From Tomocerus qinae (Eukaryota > Arthropoda > Collembola > Entomobryomorpha > Tomoceridae): DNA of 64,000 nucleotides. The DNA lies in assembly GCA_020055645.1 (NCBI GenBank), contig CM034546.1:129229875-129293874 (forward strand). Reading direction: 5' to 3'. The position numbers and the translations under genes were made by a program. Shown here one piece after another: positions 26,934 through 48,149 of the stretch. Each line of letters starts with the position of its first letter. Position 1 is the stretch's first letter. The notes beneath the pieces are model-generated. The model was given only the letters and a program-made list of their open reading frames with translations. It did not search any database and had not been told where the DNA came from.

Positions 26934-28120
26934 TAAAATTCACTAATTGGGGTAGCATAAGTGGGAGACATCCAAATAAATAATATTCACTAATTGGTGT
27001 AGCATAAGTGGGAGACATCCAAATAATATTCACTAATTGGTGAAGCAAAAGTGGGAGACATCCAAATAATATTCACTAATTGGTGTAGCATAAGTGGGAG
27101 ACATCCAAATAATATTCACTAATTGGTGTAGCATAAGTGGGAGACATCCAAATAATATTCACTAATTGGTGTAGCATAAGTGGAAGACATCCAAATAATA
27201 TTCACTAATTGGTGTAGCATAAGTGTGAGACATCCAAATTATAATTTCTCTAAATTGTGTAGCATGGGTGGGGGACATTCAAATTATAATTTCTCTAAAT
27301 TGTGTAGCATGGGTGGGGGACATTCAAATCATATTCCTAAATTGTGTAGCATGGGTGGGAGACTTCAAACTCATATTCCTAAAAGGTGTAGCATAAGTGG
27401 GAGACTTCAAACTCATATTCCTAAATTGTGTAGCATGGGTGGGAGATTCCCAACTCATATTCCTAAAAGGTGTAGCATGGGTGGGAGACTTCCAAATCAT
27501 ATTCCTAAATTGTGTAGCATGGGTGGGAGATTTCCAACTCATATTCTAAAAAGGTGTAGCATGAGTGGGAGATTTCCAACTCATATTCCTAAAAGGTGTA
27601 GCATGGGTGGGAGACTTCAAACTCATATTCCTAAATTGTGTAGCATGGGTGGGAGATTTCCAACTCATATTCCTAAATTGTGTAGCATGTGTGGGAGATT
27701 TCCAACTCATATTCCTGAAAGGTGTAGCATGGGTGGGAGACTTCCAAATCATATTCCTAAATTGTGCAGCATGGGTGGGAGATTTCTAACTCATATTCTA
27801 AAAAGGTGTAGCATGGGTGGGAGATTTCCAACTCATATTCCTAAAAGGTGTAGCATGGGTGGGAGACTTCCAATTCATATTCCTAAATTGTGTAGCATGG
27901 GTGGGAGATTTCCAACTCATGACTCATATTCCTAAAAGGTGTAGCACAAGTGGGAGATTTCCAACTCATATTCCTAAAAGGTGTAGCACAAGTGGGAGAT
28001 TTCCAACTCATATTCCTAAAAGGTGTAGCACAAGTGGGAGATTTCCAACTCATATTCCTAAAAGGTGTAGCATGGGTGGGAGACTTCAATCCAAATTTCT
28101 AAACTTAGTAAGCGCACGAA
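26934..28120. repeat. Compound minisatellite, 43-bp then 42-bp units
   Basis: The first part (to about 27235) has units of 43 bases with the core ttggtgtagcataagtggga. The second part has about twenty units of 42 bases with related cores (gtgtagcatgggtgggaga). Because 42 is a multiple of three the second part keeps long frames open on both strands, translating as a 14-residue repeat like HIPKRCSMGGRFPT. No start context, splice signals or domain supports a gene. Confidence 0.9.
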
Positions 28121-42709: not shown

Positions 42710-42800
42710 AAATTAATATGCCTGACAAGAATAATCATTTTCTTTAGTTTGACAAGATCAAGTAGCAAAAGAAAAGTCATAAGAAAGGCACATATAAAAT
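42710..42800 (-). promoter_or_regulatory. Candidate SECIS-like hairpin in the PRXL2 3' UTR
   Basis: On the minus strand, starting about 30 bases after the stop codon, ATGAC is followed by TTTTCTTT, an apical region of about 22 bases, AAAGAAAA and then TGATT. The 8-bp stem is perfect and is bordered by UGA and UGA(U) words that could form the SECIS quartet. Outside it, ATATGTGCCT can pair with AGGCATAT as helix I with a 2-base bulge. A canonical apical AA on the 5' side is missing and helix II is short, so this is a candidate only. Confidence 0.35.
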
Positions 42801-42823: not shown

Positions 42824-44292
42824 TTAAAAGTTAATTTCCAAAGCTTCTAGTATTTTTGAATTTTCCAAGTGTTTACAAAGCTCTTCTTGTTTGTAGTCCA
42901 TCAGAATTTTCTCTCCACCTTTGCTCACAATGAGGATACCTCCATTTAGCATAGCATTTCCCCAAGCATTATGAGAGGTACCATCTTTTATGGACTGAAA
43001 TATTTCAATACTCTTATAAAAAACCAGCTAGTCTACTTAACCCAAAAATACTAAGCTAAGCTATATATTATTATCATAAAACGTCAGACATATATTTCTA
43101 GTCGTTGTCAAAAATGTTGAAAGTTTTGAAAGTTTTGAAATTTTGAAAGTTTTGATTTATTTACATTATTGCGTTTTATCTAAAACTGCCAATTTGATAT
43201 AGATAAACATGGTACTCGTTTATTACCCTAAGGATCTACACAGAAAATTTTGACAATTAAAAAATTACAATATTTAATGAAATAGTAATTTCTTGTGCAT
43301 ACTTTCCAATTTTTTCACATCACTTTAAAGTAAATTGAAAGATTTGGAAAATTTAGTGTAAGCACACTAATTTAATTTTTTTATTTTATATTCAAACTTT
43401 TTTCCAAAACATTTTCTAAGTTCAAAAGGTCGTTTTTACAAAATTGTTATGAGACATTTAAAGGAAAATCTTTAGGAAAATATTTTTTATTTTAAATGCT
43501 TTGAAAATATTTTAAAAATTTGATTTTAGAAAATATACGTAGCGTATATGTGCAAATATTTTTTTAAATAGGCAAATACCTGAAGCTAAAAAATATTAAA
43601 TAAAAATATTAAATTATTGAATGTAGGATTAGGAGCTAGTTATTTACCTTTTTAACCGAACGATAAACATCTTTGTTCATAAGTGCTTTGGTGATGGAAA
43701 AGATATTATATTTTTTGTAGCCAAGGGCTTTGTAAGAAGCTGCATTAGTATCCACAAATACTTCCCCTTCAAAAAAGTTTCCTTCCAAAAATTCTTGGCA
43801 TCCCAACTCTTCTAAGCCAATTGCAACCATACGAATGTCATGTTTGTTAAGCAAGGGCAAAAGAAGACTAAACTCTTTCGCCGCTTGCCGACAACATATT
43901 CATCCGAAACGTCTCAGGAATATTATAACCACTGTACTATCTTCCCACAACGTCTTCAACTCAACAGGCTAAATAACAAAAATAAATCCTTGATATATTT
44001 CTACTTTTAATTGTAATTTCATTTCGTGGCGTGACTTAAAATTCTCTAACTCTGAAATGTATCTAGGAAAAATAAAGCTGCCAATAATTACTTTTAATTT
44101 TGTTTTAAAAGTATTAATGGCTTAAAGGTTAAACTATTAACAAATTTAGGTTTTGTTAACCAATATATAGTTTTCAAATAATTATGAATTATTCACCTTT
44201 AAAGATGGAACATGTTTGATGAGATTTTTCCCCAAAAGGTCCACATTAATTATGTGGTTATCTGAATTCGAAGTGCTGGCCGTAGTCGTCAT
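42824..44292 (-). CDS. Prxl2b: PRXL2B/SelU-type thioredoxin-fold protein, candidate selenoprotein (in-frame TGA)
   Basis: Three exons, 44292-44197, 43968-43648 and 42994-42824, join in phase into 196 codons, matching the length of PRXL2B (prostamide/prostaglandin F synthase, peroxiredoxin-like 2 family). Exon 2 reads VVIIFLRRFG, then TGA at 43902-43900, then ICCRQAAKEF. In the family this position is the first cysteine of the C-x-x-C active site, so the TGA replaces the catalytic Cys, and SelU relatives use selenocysteine there. All other codons, the splice sites and the C-terminal GGILIVSKGG strand are intact, which argues against decay. Expected role: thiol/selenol redox or prostaglandin-type reductase in the cytosol. 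A SECIS-like hairpin lies just downstream. Alternative: a single nonsense mutation or sequencing error. Confidence 0.85.
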
Positions 44293-44569: not shown

Positions 44570-44840
44570 GAATAACAAAGGTACTCATTTTTTACAAAAA
44601 ACAAAAAGGTACTCTTTTTTACAAAAAACAAAAAGGTACTCTTTTTTACGAAAAACAAAAAGGTACTCCTTTTTACAAAAAACAAAAATGTACTTTCTTT
44701 ACAAAAAAACAAAAAGGTACTCCTTTGTTACAAATAAACAAAAAGGTACTCCTATTTTACAAATAAACAAAAAGGTACTCCTATTTTACAAATAAACGAA
44801 AAGGTACTCCTTTTTTACAAAAAACAAAAATGTATTTCTT
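44570..44840. repeat. About 30-bp tandem repeat
   Basis: About nine copies of a unit such as acaaaaaggtactccttttt with variable A and T runs. Confidence 0.9.
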
Positions 44841-44844
44841 TTTT

Positions 44845-46760
44845 AAAAAGCAATCCTTTTTGCTTTTTTGCATAAAATAAAAGTAAACGAGTCAAAATGC
44901 TACATCAAAAAAGGAAAAAATGCAAAAAGGACAGCTTTAAAAAATCTTATTTATAAAAAAGTCAAAAAATTACAATTTTTGTTCCCTTACACTAAAGCTG
45001 CTAACCTATTCATCTACAAACTATATAATTGTCAGTTTAATTTATTCACACACGCACTCAGAGCTCGCAACACGCAACAGTCTCAAGTGGGTTTCCTTTG
45101 GTTTATACCACTATACAGAGACTTTAGTCTAGACTAATTACTATACTACGAGTTTCTTTAAAACCATAACAGGAGGAAGATTTGTAAAATAGTAAACAAT
45201 TCTACTAAGATATTGACCACAATATTATGGTAATCAAGAAATTATTACATTGAATTGTACTATGAATTGATGTTTAATTATGCAAATATATAAAATATAT
45301 TGTTTTGCAGTCCCAACTGTCAACCACTAACTAGTACAATGTCTTATGTACATTGATTAGTAGATTTAGAGGTTACAAATTATTCTTGATGCTGATAAAA
45401 ATTTATTGAATGAAATCTTGAAACATTCCATACATTTAATCCGACTTGATTTTAAATAAAATTTATATTTTTAATCTTTCCGTTGAAGTTTAGCAAATTA
45501 ATCTTTTGGAATTCAATATCAACAAAGTATTAACATTGTTTTCTTCTACCTCACAATGAATTATGTAAATGTTTAGATTATTATGACTTATGACTGAATA
45601 TATTCGATTGTTGTTAATACATCTGGTACAGATATAATATTATCTCACACGGATCTAGGTACTTATAGCATTGTATAATTAAATCTAAAATTCTAAAACG
45701 GAGGATAATCGACGTTTAATTTTCATAACCAACATAAAATGGGATAGTTTCGCCTTTTTACCTTGAAATGCCAAGCATATAATTATGGTGACCTAACAAT
45801 CAATTTAATTGCTTGAAATAGTAATCTACCGACTTCGTATTATTCATTCCTATCATTATGTAATTTATTTTGTTATATACTTATATGTAATGATATTGGG
45901 TCATGAGATCCTATGTGACGTCATTTCAGACAAAATTACTCAAGAAAGTAATGTAATCCTTCCTGGCTAAAATATATTTACCCAAGTATCATCCATCAGA
46001 TTGTGAATAATATCACACTATTGTAATAAAACCTGAACCTTTTGACTTGGACGCATAAATTTCTATTAGGATGCAATGAGAAAAGTACATGGTAAATAAG
46101 GTAGAAGTATTCCAGCAAATTCTCAGTTTGTTGGCATCAGTCAAAGTCGAACAAGATTTCCTCCACAGTCTGACTCTGACATGCAACGAATTTCACACAG
46201 ACAGAAAGAACTATACCAATATGCAATGTTTAAATGATAATTACTACTTTGTTATGTCTCCCTTATAATTGTACGAAACCAATATTATACCACAATTATA
46301 TCCACAGAGGAAAAATCTGAACGATTTAATCATTATGAGGAAGTTATCTAGTGAAATATAATAACAGATACATTACTCTATCTAATATTATAACGTGTAG
46401 ATTTGTCTTTGTGCCTAAAGCTGATTTATAGTTGCTGTACATTTGTTTCATGATAATCCACTCCCTTTGTTGGCCGCATTATCCAGCTTGTAAAACAAAT
46501 TAGGAATTAATGCACTGTAAATAAATTTTAACTAATCTAAATACAAAACTTATTTTCAGTTTTTATTATATCTTGAAAAAAAATTAAATACATATAATAA
46601 ACATTAAACATTTACGCGTATTATGAATTATAGTATTTCAATGCACATAAAACGATTCTAATAATTTTCTCTTTATTTAAAACAATAACCATATTATAGT
46701 TTTATTTATTAAGTATATTATAAGACTGGATACTTTATTGTAAGAAAGTCTCATTACTTT
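44845..46760. other. Intergenic, about 1.9 kb
   Basis: AT-rich with no convincing exon or repeat on either strand. Confidence 0.5.
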
Positions 46761-46761
46761 T

Positions 46762-47193
46762 TTATTTAGGTTTTCTTAACCAAAATGGGATTTTGGCAGC
46801 TGAGACAGTTTCAAACTTGGTTTTTGGTCTGATCATTTGTTCCATGTTATTCGTAGATAAGCACTTGTAATGTTTTAAATCGCATCTCGTAGCTACAAAG
46901 TGATAAGCAAAATAATATTTTTATTTTCTAAATGGCAATAGTATATTAAATACAAATAACAATAACAATAGGTAAAAATTACCGTGAGGACAACAATGAT
47001 AACCGTCATCACAGCAAGATCCATTTGGATAGGGACAGCAAACATAGCCACCTTCAAAATCGTCGCAACAAGTTTGACTTTCCTCACAAGAAATCTGAGA
47101 TCTTGGACAGTACTTGGAGTCAATAGATGAAATTGTAAAGATGATTACTAAAACCATCCTAATACAAAATGACAGAGTTTTTGATACTTTCAT
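46762..47193 (-). CDS. Secreted single-granulin-domain peptide
   Basis: Two exons, 47193-46983 and 46892-46762, join in phase into 113 residues. Residues 1-26 form a signal peptide. The mature part starts KYCPRSQISC and contains one full granulin module: twelve cysteines in the order C, C, CC, CC, CC, CC, C, C, including SCCDDGYHCCPH and TRCDLKHYKC, with the last two pairs split by the intron. A short 33-residue basic tail follows. Granulins are extracellular growth or immune modulators made from multi-module progranulin; a one-module gene is a compact form, known from other invertebrates. The intron donor is CACG/GTAATT. The receptor or role in this animal is unknown. Confidence 0.88.
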
Positions 47194-48149
47194 CTTGGGT
47201 TTGTATTTTGATTATAAATTGAATATTTTAAATTATTAGCATTAAAAAGCTTTTCAATAAAAATTACAAAGGCTTTGCAACCAAATTAATGTCTGCTGTT
47301 GAGACGTAAGATAGATATGAGGTTAAAAGTAAACTGTTTCAATTCCAAAACTTAATAACATATAGAGTTTAATAATTCTTATTTGTATATTAAAGATATA
47401 AGCAATTGACAAGTTCGTTGACATTTCGTAAGCTATAGACAGGCTGTTAAAAAGTAACCTAATTTTTTTTAAATCATGGCTACTTACAGAAGTGAAAAGT
47501 GTTAAACCATCTATTTACATTTATACCCTTTGAAGCAACAATGCAGCATTGATAAATATTTAAAGTGTAAGTAAACCATCTAGTAAGTTACAAATAAAAG
47601 TTAAATTTAGTACACGTGGTTAATATATTATCATGTTATAGTTATAATTCATTTTGATGGGACGGATTAAAGTTAGTTTTATTGTAGCTTATGGTCATAA
47701 TTTAATTATGCCATTGAAAACATACTCACATTTTAATTTGCATAATATATTATACATCAAAGATAATTTATTCAACCCTGTTTGAGCACACAGACACGTT
47801 TATCGTTCATGTTGAGATAAAAACCAATTTATACAGAATCACACAAGTTCAAACTGTCTTATATCAGTGGCTCGTTTGAAAAGTAGCTTAATGCATATAA
47901 ATCTTATAATCTGGAGGTTGACGTTTTGTATAATAATCTATTATATAGTTCGTCTAACTTATTACCATATACTTCCATGGTTTACACTTTGTAGTTCCAA
48001 TAAGACTACAAGGAGCACATATTTGTTAATGTCTTTATACTTTTTTCCATGCTTGATTGTTCATATAAATATTTGACAGGCAGTCTTAATGGCTATTCAA
48101 TGCATTGCATATCCACTAAATTGGTTTATTACATAATAGACGCTATAAG
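47194..48149. other. Intergenic, granulin promoter side
   Basis: No gene seen. Confidence 0.45.

Follow-up and report, generated by a model that had tools for sequence, protein, structure and literature searches.

A probable selenocysteine PRXL2B (SelU3) gene with a variant SECIS element

Selenocysteine (Sec) forms of SelU3, the subfamily of the prostamide/prostaglandin F (PGF) synthases, are known from several invertebrates, and SECIS elements have been reported for some of them, for example sponge SelU3_b; in the available text of this source (PMC3473315), arthropods are not named. In the accessible part of another survey, all the Sec forms of SelU that were analysed were placed in SelU1, and SelL is described as having two Sec residues two positions apart and one SECIS (PMC3316567). 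Loss of selenoproteins is presented as characteristic of insects in extracts of two papers (PMC2500217, PMC4244043), the second of which gives 20 selenoproteins for a centipede and few for insects, and a springtail genome is listed, in the portion at hand, with six tRNA-SeC genes and four SECIS elements (PMC5644144). No paper recognised as describing a Sec-PRXL2B in arthropods was among those listed by searches of a literature collection from which most subscription journals are missing.

The locus described here is a minus-strand PRXL2B (SelU3) gene of three exons and 195 residues (44292-42824) in a window of 64,000 nucleotides, the whole stretch of DNA that was analysed. Exon 1 (44197..44292, codons 1-32) ends at a phase 0 donor, GTGAAT, and has a homologous exon in the paralogue L020 (also recorded as L012). 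Exon 2 (43648..43968), bordered by an AG acceptor and a GTAAAT donor, carries the active site FLRRFG-U-ICCRQ, and exon 3, placed by the frame and by comparison with paralogues, runs to the stop codon TAA (42824..42994). Together these exons form a 196-codon frame with phase-0 joins, AG/GT borders, one internal stop and the terminal TAA. The internal stop, a TGA at 43900..43902, is the predicted selenocysteine 55, placed at the first Cys of a CxxC site by the frame, the phmmer alignment and the paralogues; the codon of Cys58 (43891..43893), the predicted resolving Cys, completes a UxxC motif. The protein matches PF13911 at 59.4 bits (cut-off 27) and aligns by phmmer, over residues 18-193, with the prostamide/PGF synthase 9us9 (E 4.5e-40), which we take to be the human enzyme. 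In this alignment the TGA column coincides with the first Cys of the CxxC site, both cysteines of which are Ser in entry 9usa. An in-frame TGA at the catalytic Cys of PRXL2B is therefore confirmed, and the structural description in an earlier note on this DNA stands: the TGA between FLRRFG and ICCRQA (43902-43900) is the sole one in the reconstructed frame, it falls in the active-site CxxC, and the three-exon gene is otherwise intact, with compatible phases and splice sites. An annotation treating the TGA as a stop would end the protein at residue 54. Elsewhere in the window there are a 27-base tandem repeat of 9.8 copies (44577-44849), some 285 bases 5' of the gene's first exon, a granulin-domain open reading frame (PF00396, 39.8 bits; 46921-47211, minus strand) and a tandem array (26938-28087) in which a 42-base unit recurs about 27 times and part of which is a 251-codon open frame (27180-27935).

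The genome searched comprises 334 Mb in 115 contigs. A PF13911 profile search gave 15 matches and a protein search 12, including two exons of the window gene, and in combination they yield six PRXL2B genes: the window gene, L020, L021a (=L005) and the adjoining L021b (=L008), L022 (=L011) and L023 (=L009). A single TGA occupies the identical codon in five of the six, with no further stop in exons 2-3, a recurrence that is beyond chance; L023 has TGC at this position. The Cys three codons past the Sec/Cys column is kept in all six genes, as is a phase 0 junction between exons 2 and 3 at an equivalent position. First exons are short in the TGA genes, and the Cys gene has a longer candidate first exon with a hydrophobic N-terminus. 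Identity between exon 2 of the window gene and those of its paralogues ranges from 46% to 78%. In a FastTree tree of seven sequences the five TGA genes form a cluster (support 0.77) that excludes 9us9 and the Cys gene, a topology that leaves the order of Sec and Cys unsettled.

The search for a SECIS on the minus strand 3' of the gene returned a SECIS-like hairpin with a purpose-built covariance model. The predicted element (42717..42792, minus strand) is of form II type, with its core starting approximately 44 nt past the stop codon, and contains helix I, a quartet with GA/GA in which AUGA (42780-42777) is set with AUGA (42738-42735), helix II and an apical helix III. A homologous hairpin lies downstream of all five TGA genes and was not found at the Cys gene (0/1). 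Visual inspection together with a folding scan revealed the first four hairpins, and the model, R1, was built from these PRXL2B elements only; they match by construction, and the independent test is L022 alone, in which R1 found the element blind (58.9 bits, E 6.5e-11) at a genomic distance of 2.0 kb past the stop codon. R1 reached no more than 18.6 bits (E 0.4) at the Cys locus; L022 also gave a stray match of 17.9 bits. When the five elements are aligned, 87% of helix cells are paired, versus 45-57% when the rows are slid; six pairs are changed on both sides (reached by 20/500 shuffles) and the covariation score is reached by 2/500 shuffles. The structure tested here was taken from the window sequence, which somewhat favours it. 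Folding z is -2.66 for the window element and -0.58 to -3.85 for the other four, two of them at -0.58 and -1.21, and the folding evidence for the window element taken alone is modest. In the 3' region compared between the window gene and L020, identity reaches 0.86 in two 50-base intervals that cover the SECIS, against 0.32-0.72 in the remaining 18 of 20, making the SECIS the most conserved part.

Rfam SECIS_1 did not report the element at 42792-42717 in the window, even at E 10, and genome-wide it gave four matches below its cut-off among the best 150 of 6070 candidates scored. A strict hairpin scan missed the L022 element and, when set to E <= -7 with AA or CC, that of the window as well (energy -5.2, no AA); at this setting, 128 kb counted over both strands contained 1 match, at another place in the window. 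Without the AA requirement the scan also picked up several hairpins in L008 and others at the Cys locus, and requiring AA still left one in L028 and one that lies between exons 2 and 3 at the Cys locus; a hairpin by itself is consequently weak proof.

The window element differs from its paralogues at the apex, where columns 37-39 of the alignment (42762..42764) read UAC in the window, CAA in L020 and AAA in the other three. An unpaired AA is thus present in the apical loop of 4/4 paralogues, and neither AA nor CC was found in that of the window. As far as the consulted text goes, the AAR motif has been described as essential in SECIS (PMC3706390); mammalian SelM and SelO have CC at the apical position in the part of PMC3316567 available, so that AA is not an absolute requirement. 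Recoding in the window copy, with AC where four paralogues have AA, may be weaker than in those genes. Since the apical AA is missing and the other features tested are present, the locus is classed here as a probable selenoprotein gene whose SECIS is a variant. The best-surviving alternative is that the gene descends from a selenoprotein gene and that the AA-to-AC change has weakened its SECIS, so that translation would mostly end at codon 55 and this copy would be on its way to being lost. The confinement of UAC to the window gene and the stated need for AAR would suit such a course, but the CC of SelM and SelO, the constrained coding sequence past the TGA and the standing of the SECIS as the best-conserved stretch of the compared 3' region all weigh against it, and it appears rather unlikely.

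Selenocysteine decoding of UGA-55 would require dedicated machinery, the lack of which the earlier note had named as grounds for giving up the proposal; tRNA-Sec, SBP2 and SPS2 genes were looked for and all are present. There are three tRNA-Sec genes with anticodon TCA (L001, L002 and L003). Of these, L002 and L003 are oppositely oriented, some 188 kb from each other and similar by eye in their flanks, and look like a local duplication. SPS2 (L041) has a TGA at its Sec site (GUGCKVPQE), and an SPS1 paralogue (L042) has Arg there (GRGCKVPQD), a form reported from insects in the accessible text of PMC4561486. More SPS exons occur in two orientations on the 512 kb contig C9 (L043 and L044), and the Sec-site exon was not found in these fragments. 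A SepSecS gene is present, and the best chains for SBP2 (L058) and eEFSec are 7zjw_B (E 4.1e-18) and 7zjw_E (E 8e-46), respectively. Readthrough of the UGA without selenocysteine has been proposed in insects, for the SPS1-UGA genes of Hymenoptera, in the same partial source; those genes are without SECIS, however, whereas all five TGA PRXL2B genes have one in a genome with Sec machinery, and readthrough of this type is very improbable here.

Past the TGA, dN/dS between the window gene and L020, its nearest paralogue, is 0.19, and the four other computable PRXL2B pairs give 0.24-0.34, with dS > 1.5 in two; dS was computable in 5 of 15 pairs, the other ten being saturated. Purifying selection acts on the coding sequence past the TGA, which is evidence against decay. 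Although TGT or TGC can become TGA in one step and some duplicated genes do decay, it is scarcely credible that this TGA is a nonsense mutation in a pseudogene undergoing decay: five diverged genes have TGA at the equivalent codon, their exons 2-3 are free of further stops and of frameshifts, and dN/dS to the nearest of them is low. Relatives with decayed exons near the TGA, which the earlier note had said would count against a selenoprotein, were not seen, and the frames of the four TGA paralogues are conserved beyond it. Were the TGA a Cys codon misread in sequencing or assembly, the same error would have to recur at all five SECIS-bearing loci, which is extremely improbable.

The reading that the window gene encodes the selenocysteine form of PRXL2B, a Sec55/Cys58 redox enzyme with UGA-55 decoded through the downstream SECIS, is accordingly very likely, and is supported as far as sequence can show. 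For Sec insertion, substrate and catalytic cycle we infer the following. The SECIS hairpin would be bound by SBP2, which would bring eEFSec and Sec-tRNA(UCA), and it is through this recruitment that UGA-55 is proposed to be read as selenocysteine. In the resulting thioredoxin-fold reductase, Sec55 would most likely be the attacking nucleophile and Cys58 the resolving residue; a peroxide-like substrate or an endoperoxide may be reduced, with the enzyme recycled by thioredoxin.

Other candidate Sec genes are present in the same genome. Five further PF13911 genes on minus strands have UxxU at the CxxC site: two in L024 (positions 8124 and 4551) and one each in L025 (4375), L026 (4305) and L027 (4388). 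Downstream SECIS-like hairpins with AA at the expected place accompany 3/5 of them in a stricter scan and 5/5 in a looser one; since each stretch yielded 3 to 8 candidates in the looser scan, and the best-folding was taken for each gene, these elements are weaker evidence. Searching three of the SelL-like loci (L024, L026 and L027) and the SPS2 locus with R1, the PRXL2B model, produced nothing at E <= 1. A GPx exon (L070), the one read among four GPx matches, reads NVASKUGKT, with TGA as the codon of the catalytic position. Short of a full survey, the candidate selenoprotein genes come to at least 12: five PRXL2B, five UxxU SelL-like, SPS2 and GPx. It is possible, albeit speculative, that the PRXL2 superfamily is this lineage's main use of selenium, with ten or more Sec genes (PRXL2B with five UxxC members, and five SelL-like members with UxxU) and extra tRNA-Sec copies, the window copy working on a SECIS without the canonical AA; if so, that SECIS would be a natural test of the role of the apical motif.

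The earlier note had valued the gene as a SelU retained in an arthropod. The arthropod assignment is weakly indicated, by arginine kinase scores and one odorant-receptor match. The arginine kinase of the genome scores 520-527 bits with 5zhq, 4bg4 and 8yx0, presumably decapod enzymes, and 473 with 1m15, which we take to be that of the horseshoe crab; the top match is 4rf6 (536 bits), a 718-residue chain of doubled length. Among 21 odorant-receptor candidates scored there was one match, at 31.7 bits (cut-off 25.8), a pattern unlike that of typical winged insects. Together with the Arg form of SPS1, these results point, with low certainty, to a pancrustacean and perhaps to a basal hexapod. Two multiplied Sec redox families in a probable arthropod allow the timing and the causes of Sec retention or loss to be studied, and the Cys paralogue and the SECIS variant provide internal controls for this.

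Set beside known systems, the window protein is collinear with 9us9 over residues 18-193 and shares its CxxC site, but has UGA where 9us9 has Cys at the first CxxC position. Distant PF13911 members of the genome resemble SelL in combining UxxU with a SECIS-like hairpin, whereas the window gene is UxxC; there are five such SelL-like genes, versus at most one SelL per species in the table of PMC3473315, as far as that source was available. The window gene belongs, in its predicted Sec form, to the same subfamily as the invertebrate Sec-SelU3 proteins treated there. The genome holds five predicted Sec and one Cys PRXL2B genes, and the maximum in that table is four SelU genes per species (sponge) with all subfamilies pooled. 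Sec-SelU3 is already known, and what is less ordinary is the size of the family, with five Sec-PRXL2B and five candidate UxxU SelL-like genes, and the unusual SECIS of the window copy.
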